A stretch of 64,000 nt of DNA from Methanococcoides burtonii DSM 6242 (lineage in GTDB: Archaea > Halobacteriota > Methanosarcinia > Methanosarcinales > Methanosarcinaceae). Below, piece by piece: positions 22,692 through 29,875 of the stretch. The stretch's first letter is position 1. Each line of letters starts with the position of its first letter. Made by a program: the position numbers and the translations under genes. Location: positions 465,579 through 529,578 of the forward strand of contig NC_007955.1 of NCBI RefSeq assembly GCF_000013725.1, written 5' to 3'. The notes below the pieces were generated by a model, which was not told the DNA's origin, made no database searches, and worked only from the letters and a program-made list of their open reading frames with translations.

Positions 22692-23027
22692 TTAATCCAA
22701 AGGGTACTCTTTTGCTTCTTTACCCAAAAAATATCCCAAAACAGTCCTGATACCTACGACTGCACCCAAAAGTATAAGTTCTTCAGTTGTGGGAGCTAAC
22801 ACCGTCTCAAGAATGTCAGCTGCTATGTAAAATTCGAGTCCGAATATTATTCTATTAGTTAGATCCCTTCGAATCTCATTATATTCACATGGTTTTTTAA
22901 ATATCTCAAGCATGATCAGCTTATAAGTTGATATAAAGCCACCATAGGTTATTAAGACCGTTCCCACTATCGTGAATAAGCTGGCAATTAATCTTAAGAT
23001 GATCTCTACGATCGTATATGTATCCAC
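22692..23027 (-). CDS. DUF1622 family membrane protein
   Basis: A 111-residue membrane protein with helices at about 5-30, 54-74 and 82-100. The conserved pattern is L-T-N-R-I-I-F-G-L-E-F-Y-I-A-A-D-I-L-E-T-V, characteristic of DUF1622. A-V-V-G-I-R-T-V-L-G-Y-F-L-G-K-E follows near the end. The function of the family is unknown. Full length for the family. Confidence 0.85.
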   Translation of the reverse strand: MDTYTIVEIILRLIASLFTIVGTVLITYGGFISTYKLIMLEIFKKPCEYNEIRRDLTNRIIFGLEFYIAADILETVLAPTTEELILLGAVVGIRTVLGYFLGKEAKEYPLD

Positions 23028-23190: not shown

Positions 23191-23644
23191 GGCTCTGTAG
23201 AAATCCTAATACCTTCTTAATATTTAAGCATGAATTAGTTTACAAATTACTATGAATTCGGATTTTTACAGAGCCTTCCTTTTATTGATATTTACAATTA
23301 TGGAGGTAATTAAATAAAGCCATACAAAATAAGTTACAGTTGTAGTTAAAATATATGGAATATTAGTACTTTTAAAAATCAAGAAATCTGCATATTTTAC
23401 TGGTCCAAGCGTCCTTGCGACAAAAATTGTGATAAATAATTTAATAAGGATGGGGAAAATGTTCAAACCTATTATTAAGATAATGAAACTATAGATTTTT
23501 TGTTTTGTTGGCTTAATAAATTCTTTCACATTCATGATTTTCGTTATGTTTCATTTAATTTTAAGTTTTTGTATTTCGACTCTGCAGAAAGCTTACCTAA
23601 ATCAACTACAGGGAAATCAAGGATCAAAGGCTTTCTACAAAGCC
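23191..23644. mobile_element. 454-bp composite element with four related inverted ends and a membrane-protein gene
   Basis: The outer left end (23191-23206, ggctctgtagaaatcc) and the outer right end (23629-23644, ggctttctacaaagcc) are inverted copies of each other. Two inner ends repeat the motif, at 23260-23275 and 23578-23592. This makes two short inverted-repeat modules of 85 and 67 bp flanking a small gene. The 8 bases before the left end (gaagatcg) and after the right end (gaagataa) agree at 6 of 8 positions, which looks like a decayed target duplication. No transposase is present, so it would move only in trans. Confidence 0.55.
23266..23535 (-). CDS. Small membrane protein carried between two inverted-repeat modules
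   Basis: An 89-residue protein with a basic N-terminus and two or three membrane helices (about 15-40, 55-78). No family recognised. The last three residues and the TAA stop come from the inner end of the left repeat module (K-A-L-stop is read from ctctgtaaaa). The original C-terminus may therefore have been replaced. It is the only gene inside the composite element. Confidence 0.5.
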   Translation of the reverse strand: MNVKEFIKPTKQKIYSFIILIIGLNIFPILIKLFITIFVARTLGPVKYADFLIFKSTNIPYILTTTVTYFVWLYLITSIIVNINKRKAL

Positions 23645-24032
23645 GAAGATAATTCTTCTTCAAATAGGTGTTCAAGGTACAGCTTTCTGACACATGTGAA
23701 ACCATATGGACCAATTATTCCAGACTTTAGTTCGATATACCAGCATTCGTTCATGCTCCTGCCACAACATCGACATTTGCTACTTTCTTTTTTAAAAACA
23801 ATTTTAGGTTTGTAGAATTCCAGATCATGTGATTCACGACAGAAATGGTAAGTGTCATCTCTCTTTTCAACAATTCCTTCTGTTCTGGCAGCTTTCATTA
23901 TATCGTGCACAACATATAGTTCTTTGTCACTGTTTTGGACAATAATGTTCTGATCTCAAGTGGAGATAGTTCAGTTGCACATATTGTTGAAATATAGTCC
24001 AGTCCTTTCTGGACAGTCTTTGAATATTTCAT
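23635..24032 (-). pseudogene. Frameshifted DUF5830-like cysteine-rich protein
   Basis: Two overlapping frames join into one protein of about 130 residues. The first reads from an ATG at 24032 (M-K-Y-S-K-T-V-Q-K-G) to about 23940. The second continues with D-K-E-L-Y-V-V-H-D-I-M-K to the C-terminal zinc-ribbon-like part C-R-C-C-G-R-S, then G-P-Y-G-F-T-C-V-R-K. A one-base gain in the T-run at 23933-23936 would restore the frame. The ending resembles haloarchaeal DUF5830 (E-x-G-P-F-G-S-S-C-V-R-K), recalled from memory. The composite element cuts the 3' end and supplies the stop. Function unknown. Confidence 0.5.
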
Positions 24033-24287: not shown

Positions 24288-25064
24288 TCAAAGTGGAAGG
24301 CAAACCTTTCGCTTTACAGAACTTACATGATCGATAGCAACCTCAATACCATATGCAAGAGACATATTTTCTTTTGTTATAACTTCCTCAGCAGTCCCTT
24401 GGGCTATGAAATCATTTTCAAGCATAATAGCAACGTTTTTTTGGCTCATAAAAGCATGGTCAGGGTAATGTGTGCTCATGATAACAGATGTGCCCTGCCT
24501 AGAGAGCTTATCAATAAGGTTCAAAATGCGTACCTGATTCCCAAAATCTAAATGAGATGTCGGTTCATCTAATAATAATATATCTGGTTCCTGGGCAAGA
24601 GCCCGTGCTATCAAAGCCAATTGTTTTTCTCCACCACTTATTTCAGTGACAGGTCTATCCATTAGATGAGAAATACCTACATTAATAATAGCATTTTCAG
24701 CTATTATTATATCTTTCTCACTTGGCGAAGAAAAGAAAGGGAGGTGTGGAGCCCTACCCAACAAAACAAAATCCAGAATTGAAAAAGAGAAAACTGACAT
24801 GTCTGCCTGTGGAACATAACCGATCCTTTGAGCAACTTCTGTTCTGCTCATTGACGAGATATTTTTATTTCCGATCAAAATGGTTCCATTTTTCAATTTA
24901 AACACATTAGCAATACATTTTATCAAAGTTGATTTCCCAATCCCATTCGGACCAAGTATGCATAAAGTTTCACCTTTTTTTAAAGAAAAGGAAATGTTCT
25001 CAAATACATTCTTTTTTCCATCATACGAATATGAAGCATTATTTAAGCTAAATATCATGACCAA
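24288..25064 (-). CDS. ABC importer ATP-binding protein (FecE/BtuD class)
   Basis: A 258-residue ATPase of the metal-chelate/cobalamin importer class. Walker A G-P-N-G-I-G-K-S-T is near residue 38, the signature I-S-G-G-E-K-Q-L-A-L-I-A-R-A-L-A is near 142, and Walker B D-I-L-L-L-D-E-P-T-S-H-L-D follows. An H-loop (S-T-H-Y-P-D-H-A) completes it. It overlaps the permease gene by 10 bases. It is the last gene of the five-gene operon that includes a radical SAM fusion and a methyltransferase. The imported compound is unknown. Confidence 0.9.
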   Translation of the reverse strand: MVMIFSLNNASYSYDGKKNVFENISFSLKKGETLCILGPNGIGKSTLIKCIANVFKLKNGTILIGNKNISSMSRTEVAQRIGYVPQADMSVFSFSILDFVLLGRAPHLPFFSSPSEKDIIIAENAIINVGISHLMDRPVTEISGGEKQLALIARALAQEPDILLLDEPTSHLDFGNQVRILNLIDKLSRQGTSVIMSTHYPDHAFMSQKNVAIMLENDFIAQGTAEEVITKENMSLAYGIEVAIDHVSSVKRKVCLPL

Positions 25065-26137
25065 CCAACTTTCCTGTTATGTAAAAGATAAGCAAAGAAC
25101 GGAGCACCCATCAATGCTGTAAGTATCCCCAGAGGGATCTCTGTGCTGCTCACTGTCCTTGCAAGATCATCTACAATTACAAGGAAAGACGCACCGAGAA
25201 AAATTGACATTGGTAATAGTTTTCTGTAATCTGGTCCAACGATCATTCTTGCAATGTGAGGCACAATAAGACCTACCCAGCCGATAAGTCCACTTATGCT
25301 AACTGCAGAAGTAGTTATCAAAGTTGCACAAATGATCACTAACAGTGTCATTCTTTTAGTATCGATTCCTAAGGACCTTGCTTCTTCCTCTCCCAAAGAA
25401 AGTACATTTATACGCCATCCTATCAGAAGAAGAACAAGTGTGCTGACCATCATTGCAGGTGCTACATAAAACAGATCATCCCACCGGACAGAAGACAAAC
25501 TACCCATTAACCAAAAGACCATTTCTGGGAGTTTATCATATGGATCTGCAATATATTTGATCAATGAGGTCAAAGCAGTGAACACAGCCCCAATAATTAT
25601 TCCTGAAAGTACAAGGATTAATGTAGATGTTTGATTACAGACCTTACCAAGATTATAAGCAAGAAAAGCTGCAAATATTCCAAAAGAGAATGCTAACAAT
25701 TGGATTAATATTATATTTTCGCTAATGAGTATCCCTAAACAAGCACCAAACCCTGCACCTGCTGCCACTCCTAATATATATGGGGAAACAAGTGGATTAC
25801 GAAATAAGCCCTGAAAAGAAGCCCCTGCCACTGATAATCCACCTCCAACCACCATTGCGGCAATAATTCGTGGCATACGTATCTGAAATATTACAGTATC
25901 AATATTTGGAGACCACGTATGTTCTATTGGGATAAACTTTGAAACTATTAAGCCCATTATTGAAACTGGGGATATTGAGTATCTTCCAACAAAAAGCGAT
26001 AGAATGAACAGGAGAATCATCAAAAGTAATATGAGTATCTCTTTCTTGCTACTATCAAATATTTTATGAGTTGAACTCCATACATGATCAATTATATTTT
26101 TTCCAACATTTGATCCCATATAATTCCTCTTTTTCAA
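25055..26137 (-). CDS. ABC importer permease (FecCD/BtuC class)
   Basis: A 360-residue permease with about ten helices. Typical FecCD motifs are visible: R-M-P-R-I-I-A-A-M-V-V-G-G-G-L, then G-A-S-F-Q-G-L-F-R-N-P-L-V-S-P-Y-I-L-G, and the coupling segment G-I-D-T-K-R-M. Near the end is S-G-L-I-G-W-V-G-L-I-V-P-H-I-A-R-M. It forms a homodimeric channel for a metal chelate, corrinoid or bare metal, with the ATPase and the lipoprotein of the same operon. Confidence 0.92.
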   Translation of the reverse strand: MKKRNYMGSNVGKNIIDHVWSSTHKIFDSSKKEILILLLMILLFILSLFVGRYSISPVSIMGLIVSKFIPIEHTWSPNIDTVIFQIRMPRIIAAMVVGGGLSVAGASFQGLFRNPLVSPYILGVAAGAGFGACLGILISENIILIQLLAFSFGIFAAFLAYNLGKVCNQTSTLILVLSGIIIGAVFTALTSLIKYIADPYDKLPEMVFWLMGSLSSVRWDDLFYVAPAMMVSTLVLLLIGWRINVLSLGEEEARSLGIDTKRMTLLVIICATLITTSAVSISGLIGWVGLIVPHIARMIVGPDYRKLLPMSIFLGASFLVIVDDLARTVSSTEIPLGILTALMGAPFFAYLLHNRKVGWS

Positions 26138-26156
26138 AAAAGCAGTATATTAAAAA

Positions 26157-27899
26157 TTATTTAAGGCTAATATTATAGAACGAACGATTCTGGCTGGAGG
26201 GGGTGAAAGGAACTCCATAGAACTTTTCGTAAAAAACATTTGCCTCTTTATCAATGTCAAAATTAAAAATATCCGAATGTATCTTATTTGCAATATACAT
26301 CAAACCCAATATCCAGCGTGGACTTCCAAAATCCCAGGACGGACGAAGTCCATATATATTTTCATTTTTTACAGCATCAACTAAAAGAGCATTTTTTCTG
26401 CAATACTCATATGAATCAGAAACAGGACTTGAAAAAAGACCGGAGATGAAGATAAACTCTGGGTTCATTTCAATAAATTCCCTACTTGAAATGTTGACTC
26501 CGGGTTTCCCTTCCCTTTCGATACATCTATTAACACTATCTCCTCCAGCAGCTTCAACAAGATTGTTTTCGATCCTCTCACCATTAATTGAGAAAAGTGG
26601 GTAACCCATTGAATAGTAAACTCGTGGTCTTTTTAGATTTTTTACTTCTGAACGTATAAAGTCCAGTTTTGTCTTCATGTAATCTATAAGTTCCATACCT
26701 TCCGCTTCTTTCTCTGTAAGCGTTGCGAAATGCCTTATAACATCAAAATATGAATCAAGTTTCTGCACATCATGATGAAGCTCTTGAAGATAGTCAGCTT
26801 CCATTACGTTCATCCATATTTCAGCAAGTTTCTGATCGTCCTTTACCCCAAGACATGTCAGGATTGCATGAACCATTTCCAAAGCTCTGGTGGGTCGATA
26901 TCCTCCCATAAATCCAGGTTCCTGAAATTCATTTTTACTTATAGTTCCTTTAATTCTTATAGAGATGCCACATTCACAGAAACCATCTTTCAAACATCTT
27001 GTCGTATGAGCCCCCATGGGTCCAAAAAATTCCCTTTGAAAAACAATCTTCCCACAGTTCTTACATGTCGTGTTCAAATATTCAGTGCCTGGAGAATTGA
27101 AAAGATATACATTATCAAGTTCTGTATTCAATATGTCACATAATATTTCAGAATCCTTTATTGTTGGCTCAAGGTCAGGGGCAGCATCCCCAAACGGTAC
27201 GAATCTCATAACCTGGAACGGGATGTCTTTTGAAAGAGAAGAAACATATTTTGCAGTATTTATGACCTCATCCTCAAAACCTTTTAAGTAAATAGTAGAG
27301 ACCTCTACATGAACATTACTTTCATGTAATAATTTTAAATTTCTAAAGGCAGGGGTAGAGCTGTTAGCACCACATGAAAGGTATCTTTCATCAGAATAGC
27401 CTTTTATTCCAAGATTTACAAAATCAATTAATGGAATTAGCTCTTTCAGTGCCGCTTCTGTATAATAGCCATTTGTTGAACAACCTATTAATAAATCATT
27501 TTCTTTAGCTTTTTCTGCAAGGTCCTTGAACGTAAAAAATGAAACGATCGGATCATTTAGACAAAAAACGATCCCTATGCAATCTTCATCGAAAGCCTTT
27601 TTGATGACCTGGTCGTTGGTTATTTCTTTTTTTCGGCCCAATGTATCCATTTCAGATGCAAGGATCTCTGAGATACAGCCTTCACAATTAAAATTACAAC
27701 CAATAGTACAAACCTGCAGGAATTTACTATTTGGATAAAAATGGAGTAGAGGCATTGTTTCAATCGAAATTGGTAGCATAGTAAAATAGTTATTAGGGAA
27801 TCTCTCTACAACTACACCTTTTTCATTAGTGTACATACGACATTGGCCGTGTTTTCCTTCCACCAGATCGCAACCGATCTCACAAATGTTGCATTTCAT
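26157..27899 (-). CDS. Radical SAM protein fused to a cytoplasmic solute-binding-like domain
   Basis: A 580-residue fusion of a type I do not know. Residues 3-20 hold four cysteines (C3, C6, C10, C20) of metal-binding type. The radical SAM motif C-x3-C-x2-C is at C68, C72 and C75, and the radical SAM barrel runs to about 280. A ribbon-like set of cysteines follows (C-K-N-C-G-K and C-L-K-D-G-F-C-E-C). The C-terminal third (about 415-565) resembles the second half of FecB/BtuF-type binding proteins: P-E-F-I-F-I-S-G-L-F, then V-K-N-E-N-I-Y-G-L. No signal peptide is present, so this domain is cytoplasmic. It lies 3 bases after the methyltransferase and 19 before the permease. Chemistry on the imported compound is a reasonable inference; the reaction is unknown. 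Confidence 0.75.
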   Translation of the reverse strand: MKCNICEIGCDLVEGKHGQCRMYTNEKGVVVERFPNNYFTMLPISIETMPLLHFYPNSKFLQVCTIGCNFNCEGCISEILASEMDTLGRKKEITNDQVIKKAFDEDCIGIVFCLNDPIVSFFTFKDLAEKAKENDLLIGCSTNGYYTEAALKELIPLIDFVNLGIKGYSDERYLSCGANSSTPAFRNLKLLHESNVHVEVSTIYLKGFEDEVINTAKYVSSLSKDIPFQVMRFVPFGDAAPDLEPTIKDSEILCDILNTELDNVYLFNSPGTEYLNTTCKNCGKIVFQREFFGPMGAHTTRCLKDGFCECGISIRIKGTISKNEFQEPGFMGGYRPTRALEMVHAILTCLGVKDDQKLAEIWMNVMEADYLQELHHDVQKLDSYFDVIRHFATLTEKEAEGMELIDYMKTKLDFIRSEVKNLKRPRVYYSMGYPLFSINGERIENNLVEAAGGDSVNRCIEREGKPGVNISSREFIEMNPEFIFISGLFSSPVSDSYEYCRKNALLVDAVKNENIYGLRPSWDFGSPRWILGLMYIANKIHSDIFNFDIDKEANVFYEKFYGVPFTPSSQNRSFYNISLK

Positions 27900-27902
27900 T
27901 TT

Positions 27903-28559
27903 TTATTCCACCTTTTTAAAAAGTATCCAAAAACCGGATTCATCGTCGATTATCTCATAATCGTTAATTTTGGCCGTTTTTAGTGCTTTTTCAAAACTTT
28001 CAAGATTGGAACGTTCCAGTCTCTTATTGACATTTTCTATCCAACCTTTGTCTCTGATTACCATTTCATTTGAAATCTTTGATTTCAATTCAGATGTTCC
28101 AAATCCTCCACCTATATACCCAAAACCTCCGGGTTTCAGTACCCGATATATCTGTCTGAATGCTGTGGCTACATCCTGCCAGAAAAAAAGAGAGCCCCTG
28201 CTTACGATCAGATCCGCATAGCCATCTTCAAAAGGCATGTTATGAACATCCTCCAGTATAGGAGTTATTTTATCGCTCAAGTTGCTTTGATCGATCCTTT
28301 TTTTTGCTATGGCATACATTTTTTCGGATATGTCGAGTGTATAAATATTTCCATCTATGAGATGACTAAGGGAAATTGCCAGAGCTGCAGTCCCACTTCC
28401 AACATCAATAATAATTCCGCTGTTGATGTTGCATCGTTGTACTATTTGTTGTGAAATTACCGGATATATGGGAGCAAAGACATTGGTTGCAATATCATCA
28501 AATTCTTTTGCATCATTATTGAATGAACTTTGACCAGTCAAACTTTTAAAAGTTTTCAT
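27903..28559 (-). CDS. Class I SAM-dependent methyltransferase
   Basis: A 218-residue methyltransferase of the UbiE/Methyltransf_11 fold. Motif I is I-I-I-D-V-G-S-G-T-A-A-L-A near residue 50. An acidic residue ends strand 2 (T-L-D-I-S-E), and motif post-I/IV reads F-E-D-G-Y-A-D-L-I-V-S-R-G. The region before L-K-P-G-G-F-G-Y-I is also typical. The substrate is not known. It is the second gene of the operon, 47 bases after the binding-protein gene and 3 bases before the radical SAM gene, so a role in modifying the imported compound is likely. Confidence 0.85.
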   Translation of the reverse strand: MKTFKSLTGQSSFNNDAKEFDDIATNVFAPIYPVISQQIVQRCNINSGIIIDVGSGTAALAISLSHLIDGNIYTLDISEKMYAIAKKRIDQSNLSDKITPILEDVHNMPFEDGYADLIVSRGSLFFWQDVATAFRQIYRVLKPGGFGYIGGGFGTSELKSKISNEMVIRDKGWIENVNKRLERSNLESFEKALKTAKINDYEIIDDESGFWILFKKVE

Positions 28560-28606
28560 TATTTCATACCCCTATTATTTTCTTAATATTGTAGATCAGA
28601 ATGCAT

Positions 28607-29695
28607 TCATTGTTCGGAAATGCAATCCGGAAATAGCATTTTGTCGATCTCATTATCTGTCAATTCGTAATGGTAAAATTCGGAATAGAACTCTTTAATA
28701 AGATCGTTTAAGTCAATATTTTTGAATTTTTCAGGATAGAGAATTTTAGCTGTCCAAGATATACCAATTATCCTGTTTATTCCAGGTGGCCTGTCAAACC
28801 AGCAAAAAGGTGCATTGGGTACTAGATAAATTTCGTGATCTTTTACTGCAGTGATATTCTGCCAAATATGATCAGAATATATGTTGTTGTAAAATGTGCT
28901 ATCACCAGTGATTATGACATCAGGGTTCCATTTTAATATTTGTTCGATGGATATTTCGGTTCTCCCATACCCTTCAAGAAAAGGACATTCTGCAACATTG
29001 ATGCCTCCACATACTTCTATTAATTGACTGTGAGATGAACCTTTAGAATCTGTTTGGAGCCCTGCAGTGCCTTCAGCATAATATACTCGCTTTCTTTCAT
29101 TTAGAGGAATTTCTGAGACCTTTGTAGTAACGGTGTTGAGTGAGGTTTTATAAAAACGTATTAAGTGCTCTGCTCGTTCATCCTCTCCCAATACTCCCCC
29201 CATAAATTCGATGGAATCTTCATAAGTCATTACATCAATGTTTGATTCAATGCCCACGACCGGAATTGTGCCAAATTTTTCCTGTCTGGCATTAATTGTG
29301 GAATCGATATCTTCCCCACTGTTATATCCTTCAAAAATAATATCAGGACATATTGAAATAATGGATTCATAATTTCCATCCTGTTTACCAAACCAACCAC
29401 CTATTACAGGAAGAGTGGAGTATTCTGGTGTTAAATATTTATCCGGTTCTTCTGGCACAAAATTCCATCCTGCTAATTTTTCCGGAGCTAACATGTAAAT
29501 AAGCATGGTAGTTGGAGGAGAAGTGGCAACGACCTTGTTGATATCATTTGGAATTACAACCGTCCTTCCGGCCATATCAGATATATTTCTTGAATTTTGT
29601 TGATCCTCTGTTTTCCTTTGGTCAACACATGCACTTGTGCTTAACACAAGTAAGATCATTAACATTAAAAGACAATAGGTTATTTTTTTATGCAT
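28607..29695 (-). CDS. Solute-binding lipoprotein of a metal-chelate/corrinoid-type ABC importer
   Basis: A 362-residue binding protein. The start at 29695 (M-H-K-K-I-T-Y) is chosen because it has GAGG before it and opens a lipoprotein signal peptide with lipobox S-T-S-A-C. A longer frame upstream (to 29875) lacks any signal. The body is a class III (PF01497-like) domain with D-M-A-G-R-T-V-V-I-P-N, then I-S-I-C-P-D-I-I-F-E-G, then I-L-K-W-N-P-D-V-I-I-T-G. It resembles proteins that bind oxyanions, nickel or metal chelates. The ligand cannot be set from sequence. It is the first gene of the operon. Confidence 0.85.
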   Translation of the reverse strand: MHKKITYCLLMLMILLVLSTSACVDQRKTEDQQNSRNISDMAGRTVVIPNDINKVVATSPPTTMLIYMLAPEKLAGWNFVPEEPDKYLTPEYSTLPVIGGWFGKQDGNYESIISICPDIIFEGYNSGEDIDSTINARQEKFGTIPVVGIESNIDVMTYEDSIEFMGGVLGEDERAEHLIRFYKTSLNTVTTKVSEIPLNERKRVYYAEGTAGLQTDSKGSSHSQLIEVCGGINVAECPFLEGYGRTEISIEQILKWNPDVIITGDSTFYNNIYSDHIWQNITAVKDHEIYLVPNAPFCWFDRPPGINRIIGISWTAKILYPEKFKNIDLNDLIKEFYSEFYHYELTDNEIDKMLFPDCISEQ

Positions 29696-29875
29696 CCAAT
29701 TCCTCAGTATTGTGATTTTTTTGCAAGGACCGTTATGTTCGGATGAACATAACGGTAGATAAAGCTTTCTAAATCGATATGGGAATTGGGAATAGAAATA
29801 GTTCAATCGGTGGATTGAATATCGTGGCAGGATCGAGTTTATTGGAGCAGTAAAAATACACCATTTTATGGTCAT

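Follow-up and report, generated by a model that had tools for sequence, protein, structure and literature searches.

A molybdenum-regulon operon candidate with a radical SAM protein fused to half of a substrate-binding protein in Methanococcoides burtonii

We analyzed a window of 64,000 nt from Methanococcoides burtonii DSM 6242 (NC_007955.1, forward-strand positions 465,579 to 529,578), in which five close-set genes at positions 24288-29695, all on the minus strand, combine an ATP-binding cassette (ABC) importer with a methyltransferase and a radical S-adenosylmethionine (SAM) protein that ends in half of a substrate-binding protein. We are highly confident, on the basis of a ModE-like control site ahead of the first gene, that this operon belongs to the molybdenum regulon. 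Its ligand is very probably molybdenum or a close chemical relative (perhaps also tungsten or vanadium), as judged from this site and from the genes around related operons. We read directly from the sequence the order of the genes, the fusion with its predicted fold, the operator-like site and the molybdenum-related neighborhoods. As the best explanation for the whole, to which we give about an even chance of being right, we propose that the operon serves molybdenum acquisition and that the fusion protein processes the imported complex in the cytoplasm. The features of the locus are the following (window coordinates).

29756-29768, minus strand: TATA-like promoter element (AAAGCTTTATCTA), a sequence reading; abuts the operator
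29731-29754, unstranded: ModE-like palindromic operator CGTTATGTTCATCCGAACATAACG, 36 bases upstream of the first gene, 0 mismatches
28607-29695, minus strand: lipoprotein substrate-binding protein of the MolA/FecB type, 362 aa (PF01497, 70.9 bits)
27903-28559, minus strand: class I SAM methyltransferase, 218 aa (PF08241, 79.7 bits)
26157-27899, minus strand: radical SAM protein fused to half a binding protein, 580 aa (PF04055 and PF01497, AlphaFold, structure comparison)
26964-27899, minus strand: radical SAM part, residues 1-312 of the fusion (TIGR04337, 110.8 bits; invariant cysteines)
26196-26894, minus strand: half binding protein, residues 336-568 of the fusion, with helical stub, linking helix and C-lobe (Z scores to 4hn9 and 3psa)
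25055-26137, minus strand: FecCD-family permease, 360 aa (PF01032, 311.9 bits)
24288-25064, minus strand: importer ABC ATPase, 258 aa (PF00005, 115.6 bits)

The fusion ends, according to profile matches and the predicted fold, in the C-lobe of a class III binding protein that has lost the sheet of its N-lobe. Its radical SAM domain matches PF04055 with 46.7 bits (cut-off 29.5), and residues 374-520 match PF01497 with 32.8 bits (cut-off 27.5). The latter match spans profile positions 92-233 of 235, the C-terminal half, and since it begins only at position 92, the fused domain does not comprise the two complete lobes of a class III binding protein. A sequence search of the C-terminal region against solved structures gave 4pag as the best match (E 1e-10) and also found MolA (3psa, E 0.005). 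In the full-length AlphaFold model, residues 33-266 form a barrel like that of pyruvate-formate-lyase activase (Z 18.2), and residues 340-566 match the class III binding protein 4hn9 (Z 18.0 over 213 residues, 2.5 Å). When modeled alone (predicted local distance difference test score, pLDDT, 78.7; predicted template modeling score, pTM, 0.81), the C-terminal part matched 4hn9 with Z 21.0 over 220 residues, and the comparison with MolA 3psa gave Z 15.9 for the full model and 18.4 for the domain alone. No strand is predicted between residues 303 and 425, and the model therefore lacks the N-lobe sheet. No signal peptide was found on the fusion, whose N terminus (MKCNICEIGC) belongs to the radical SAM part. 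A first-pass annotation of this DNA had described the last third of the protein as half of a FecB/BtuF binding protein lacking a signal peptide, and both statements are borne out, with PF01497 above its threshold and Z scores of 18-21 to solved binding proteins. It had left the fold of this part to structure prediction, which now places a binding-protein C-lobe apart from the radical SAM barrel.

For residues 1-312, the TIGR04337 score lies below the family cut-off of 220 bits. The CxxxCxxC motif at cysteines 68, 72 and 75 is invariant in 37 nonredundant fusion sequences, which also have in common eleven further invariant cysteines: an N-terminal four-cysteine motif (3, 6, 10 and 20), a second one (279, 282, 308 and 310) and cysteines 107, 140 and 176. 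An alignment with stand-alone AmmeMemo radical SAM proteins was limited to one usable sequence out of three, because at the other two loci the longest open frame belonged to another gene. Structure comparison additionally revealed similarity of the radical SAM core to NifB (Z 15-16).

The palindrome ahead of the operon has the form CGTTATGTT-N6-AACATAACG and stands beside the TATA-like element; a similar A/T-rich element immediately precedes it in related loci. The published ModE consensus is ATCGCTATATA-N6-TATATAACGAT (PMC2700814), and the operon palindrome, with CG-TAT half-sites, shares its N6 spacer and its outer half-site letters (PMC2700814). At up to three mismatches, the chance expectation for the window was 0.02, and the whole 2.58 Mb genome contains only four sites, namely the operon's own and three others. 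The second is located about 27 bases before modABC. The third, which is degenerate, lies about 70 bases before a second modA (C1:1521905-1522555; L168:7759-8589), next to which no modB or modC was recognized. The fourth (C1:235206-235229; L174:8207-8230) lies between a modD/nadC-like gene (151.7 bits, just below the cut-off of 178.85) and a divergent Nif3-like gene, an arrangement that recurs together with a ModE-like site in another genome (G092, L188). The palindrome, perfect at the operon, is thus common to the operon, modABC, the second modA and the modD-like gene, as would be expected of a ModE-regulon operator. A ModE-like protein of 195 aa is encoded in the same genome (TOBE 47.7 bits, cut-off 22.3; HTH_1 25.9, cut-off 26.6; TIGR00637 66.3, cut-off 98.5).

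Across six related genomes, the pattern matched 41 sites, as opposed to 7 for the reversed control, and the sites that could be read include some at modAB, fmdE, fwdDB, modD-like and binding-protein operons. In three Methanosarcina-like genomes (G148, G150 and G157; L179, L180 and L181), fmdE-like genes are preceded at a distance of about 100 bases by perfect palindromes, which would bring a formylmethanofuran dehydrogenase locus into this regulon. ModE-like sites are also present ahead of vnf and anf genes and of nitrogenase-linked fusion copies, and none was found in 40 random regions. Because the palindrome was discovered in an upstream alignment of this operon, finding it again in relatives of the operon is to some extent circular; this does not apply to the sites ahead of mod, modD-like, fmdE, fwd and nitrogenase genes.

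Gene context was recorded within 3.5 kb of the fusion at 55 related loci. A methyltransferase homolog on the same strand was found at 43 of them, a binding-protein homolog at 38 and a permease at 33; methyltransferase and fusion form the tightest pair, usually 6-25 bases apart by match coordinates. Among 40 random 18-kb regions of the same genomes, one contained a binding protein or permease and none a methyltransferase. Co-occurrence, which the first-pass annotation had proposed as a check, is therefore the rule for the methyltransferase and frequent for the importer. Two Deferribacterota copies (L043:8001-9773 and L103:8172-9953) have no importer or methyltransferase recognizable nearby, and in a third locus from this phylum (L104) the fusion is divergent from permease, ATPase and binding-protein genes.

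Molybdenum- or nif-related genes occur at 19 of 56 fusion loci and at none of the 40 random regions. The 56 comprise two overlapping loci (L089 and L121) and several from close relatives; DUF364 and FmdE matches, which are less directly tied to molybdenum, contribute to the 19, and the gene list was fixed after some loci had been seen. At L087, genes for ModA (156.4 bits, cut-off 62.5), ModB (232.2 bits, cut-off 182.6) and ModC are followed directly by methyltransferase and fusion, and at L114 ModABC and moeA-like genes adjoin the same pair. Two moeA-type genes are divergent from a binding-protein/fusion pair at L088, with fwdB and fwdD about 5 kb further, and at L045 the fusion is followed by DUF364 genes and fwdB/fwdD. 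Methanosarcina-like genomes carry a second fusion copy at vnf or anf nitrogenase loci (L049, L051, L060 and L062; profile scores of 1007.8 bits for VnfD, 1144.4 for AnfD and 301.4 for AnfO), and at L089/L121 a further copy is located some 5 kb beyond a nif-type operon that has an AnfO-like gene. In one genome of the same family (G142, L057:5156-7228), the binding protein of the fusion operon is a single open frame that joins a ModA domain (217.8 bits, cut-off 62.5) to a PF01497 domain (68.5 bits).

Full-length copies of the fusion were detected in 32 of 295 Halobacteriota genomes, representing six families, and in about 32 of 186 genomes of the same order at 42-74% identity (100% for the source genome). 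The named full-length relatives are Methanohalophilus and other Methanosarcinaceae, and the fusion is also present in Candidatus Methanolliviera. It is common in methanogens and rarer in Deferribacterota (3 of 51 genomes) and Desulfobacterota (8 of 395). Since it is full length in dozens of genomes at about 39-74% identity, the architecture is not a product of chance. In a phylogenetic tree, the 53 fused lobes cluster together (support 0.71), apart from a cluster of the 41 operon binding proteins (0.90). We therefore reject the idea that the fused lobe arose from the operon's own binding protein by recent local duplication; because the fused lobes group apart, the fusion looks like an old, single event. 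At L102:7669-11108 (G471) and at G378:C1:19689-23129, two paralogs of the fusion lie side by side on opposite strands; they share about 36% and 51% identity with the window protein.

Along the operon, the genes are separated by 47, 3 and 19 bases and then overlap by 10 bases. Coordinates, strand and spacing all agree with the tight five-gene operon of the first-pass annotation. Permease, ATPase and class III binding lipoprotein within one operon constitute an ABC importer of the FecCD type (type II). The lipoprotein contains a lipobox (LSTSAC), and its start at 29695 is supported by a TGAGGA ribosome-binding site just upstream. A longer open reading frame of 422 aa, starting at 29875, reads through promoter and operator and is unlikely to be the gene. 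Downstream of the operon, also on the minus strand, follow a DUF5830-like frame (23635-23910), which the profile matches with its C-terminal part only, and a small gene for a DUF1622 membrane protein (22692-23027).

Regarding the form of the ligand, the closest solved relative of the lipoprotein is 4pag (E 2e-57), an uncharacterized protein, followed by 4ovk (E 3e-29) and MolA 3psa (E 2.6e-25, residues 36-342). MolA binds molybdate and tungstate (PMC4031551), and owing to the homology of the lipoprotein with MolA, a bare oxyanion is a possible cargo. We favor a chelate or other metal complex, judging from the composition of related clusters. TonB-dependent receptors are encoded in six Desulfobacterota fusion clusters (L114, L115 and L117-L120), once together with a TonB protein. 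Because small oxyanions pass porins, such an energized outer-membrane receptor suggests a larger complex. DUF364 genes are present in seven fusion clusters (L040, L045, L092, L102, L105, L115 and L119), and DUF364/DUF4213 proteins have been linked to heavy-metal chelation, with a published context of iron, tungstate, vanadium and molybdate transport (PMC2954201). The first-pass annotation had named corrinoids, metal chelates or oxyanions as candidate ligands; the ModE-like operator, the mod, moeA, fwd and nif neighborhoods and the ModA fusion point to molybdenum or a relative and disfavor corrinoids.

Under our proposal of molybdenum acquisition, a ModE-type regulator would repress the operon when molybdenum is plentiful and would leave the operator when it becomes scarce. 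The MolA/FecB-type lipoprotein would then catch the metal, probably complexed, and the FecCD/ATPase pair would import the complex. In the cytoplasm, the fusion would take it over, with the C-lobe holding the cargo and the radical SAM barrel facing it from where the lost N-lobe would have been. Radical chemistry and the partner methyltransferase might release or convert the metal complex, and the freed metal could feed the cofactor assembly of molybdenum or tungsten pterin enzymes (e.g., formylmethanofuran dehydrogenase) and of nitrogenase. We infer the chelate nature of the cargo, its binding by the fusion and every chemical step, including the transfer of the ligand to the fusion and its subsequent methylation or rearrangement, which the first-pass annotation had already proposed. 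Processing of the imported complex by the fusion, with its chemistry as outlined, is in our estimate a little short of an even chance. More tentatively still, we suggest a molybdenum metallophore pathway, by which anaerobic archaea and bacteria would import molybdenum (or tungsten or vanadium) as an organic chelate and process this chelate within the cell by a radical SAM enzyme with a former transport-receptor lobe as substrate holder.

Several observations weigh against this proposal. The full-length model of the fusion has a pTM of 0.60 and a weak interdomain geometry, which affects the picture of lobe and barrel as two jaws, and no palindrome of this form turned up in archaeal loci outside the Methanosarcinaceae. 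The methyltransferase and the fusion also stand beside ModABC, an importer of bare molybdate (L087 and L114), and an importer is missing from the vicinity of some fusion copies; both observations can be read as easily in terms of biosynthesis or cofactor maturation.

In the former case, which is our main rival explanation and which we consider possible though rather unlikely, the fusion and the methyltransferase would make an organic molybdenum ligand, either a secreted molybdophore or an intracellular carrier; the half binding protein would hold the product or its complex, and the importer would retrieve the loaded ligand. The strict pairing of fusion and methyltransferase and the proximity of ModABC fit this explanation nearly as well: this pair is the most constant one at the loci, the importer is more often missing, and the pair adjoins ModABC at the two loci just named. 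TonB-dependent receptors would likewise suit the import of a self-made chelate. On the other hand, no exporter was recognized in the operon or its close relatives, where no systematic search for exporters was made, and a domain derived from a receptor would suit the handling of imported cargo better than synthesis.

Less probable, in our view, is a role of the fusion as a maturase or metal-insertion factor, which would bind molybdenum, tungsten or vanadium and build or load a metallocofactor (pterin, nitrogenase or new) by radical SAM or iron-sulfur chemistry. The copies without importer at vnf, anf and nif loci and near moeA and fwd genes (L049, L051, L060, L062, L088 and L089) are consistent with such a function, as are the similarity to NifB and the eleven further invariant cysteines, which suggest extra metal clusters. 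However, most fusion copies are linked to importer and methyltransferase, and the gene is absent from many molybdenum users.

A salvage operon for corrinoid, heme or ferric chelate, in which the fusion would remodel the imported ring or siderophore, is very unlikely. The BtuC/FecCD, BtuF/FecB and TonB-dependent receptor families are common to such systems, and in one Desulfobacterota locus a cobalamin riboswitch (L120:7722-7908) lies between the fusion gene and cbiK/cbiL-like genes, the single corrinoid link that we saw. The ModE-like operator and the molybdenum gene context speak against salvage, and the specific models remained below their cut-offs: BtuC with 258.1 bits (cut-off 461) and 203.1 bits (cut-off 334), BtuF with 29.2 bits (cut-off 234), and likewise BtuD, FecC and FecE. 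Eight of nine bacterial loci, five of them with TonB-dependent receptors, have no cobalamin riboswitch, and an Rfam search of the window found none either, which is a weak test in archaea, where such riboswitches are not expected. Models, riboswitch searches and neighborhoods taken together thus disfavor corrinoid salvage. Arsenic methylation, suggested by weak ArsM matches of the methyltransferase, was dropped because this protein has a single cysteine.

Nitrogen fixation and steps of methanogenesis depend on molybdenum and tungsten, whose uptake is usually described as the transport of bare oxyanions. An operon of the molybdenum regulon that includes a radical SAM enzyme would imply a chemical step after (or before) import that is missing from current descriptions, and the fusion copies at vanadium and iron-only nitrogenase loci may bear on how alternative nitrogenases are handled. 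What is new here is the metal, very probably molybdenum, as the ligand. In the open-licence literature that we searched, we found no published description of a radical SAM component in a molybdenum import operon, nor of a fusion between a radical SAM protein and a binding protein, which does not prove that none exists.

Among known systems, MolBC-A of Haemophilus influenzae (HI1470-1472) likewise combines a FecCD-type importer with a class III binding protein, and its MolA is homologous to the lipoprotein of the operon. To our knowledge, neither a radical SAM protein nor a methyltransferase belongs to that system, and it has no binding-protein domain inside the cell. It takes the bare oxyanion as ligand and operates under high-molybdate conditions (PMC4031551). 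With the ModABC/ModE regulon, the operon shares the type of control site, which in this genome is common to modABC, the second modA and the modD-like gene, whereas ModABC belongs to a different transporter family and its systems are not known to include a radical SAM fusion. About 9 kb from modABC, the source genome also encodes another importer of the FecBCD type (C1:1621686-1624789; L167:5686-8789), whose binding protein is of the PGF-CTERM type and which is followed by PQQ-repeat-like surface proteins. DUF364/DUF4213 proteins are a separate family of unproven function that is absent from the window operon. AmmeMemoRadiSam enzymes (TIGR04337) provide the closest sequence model for fusion residues 1-312, at half of the family cut-off, and activases of glycyl-radical enzymes the closest fold for residues 33-266; compared with both, the fusion adds half a binding protein and has a different gene context. 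FecB, BtuF and CeuE, class III binding proteins, have the C-lobe and linking helix of the fused domain, while the fused copy has neither signal peptide nor N-lobe sheet and is attached to an enzyme. Anaerobic heme-degrading radical SAM enzymes of the ChuW/HutW type adjoin heme importers that are FecB/FecCD-like, and they dismantle the imported heme. They differ from the fusion in their radical SAM family, in their heme ligand and in having no binding-protein domain, yet they follow a parallel logic, in which an importer is paired with a cytoplasmic radical SAM enzyme.

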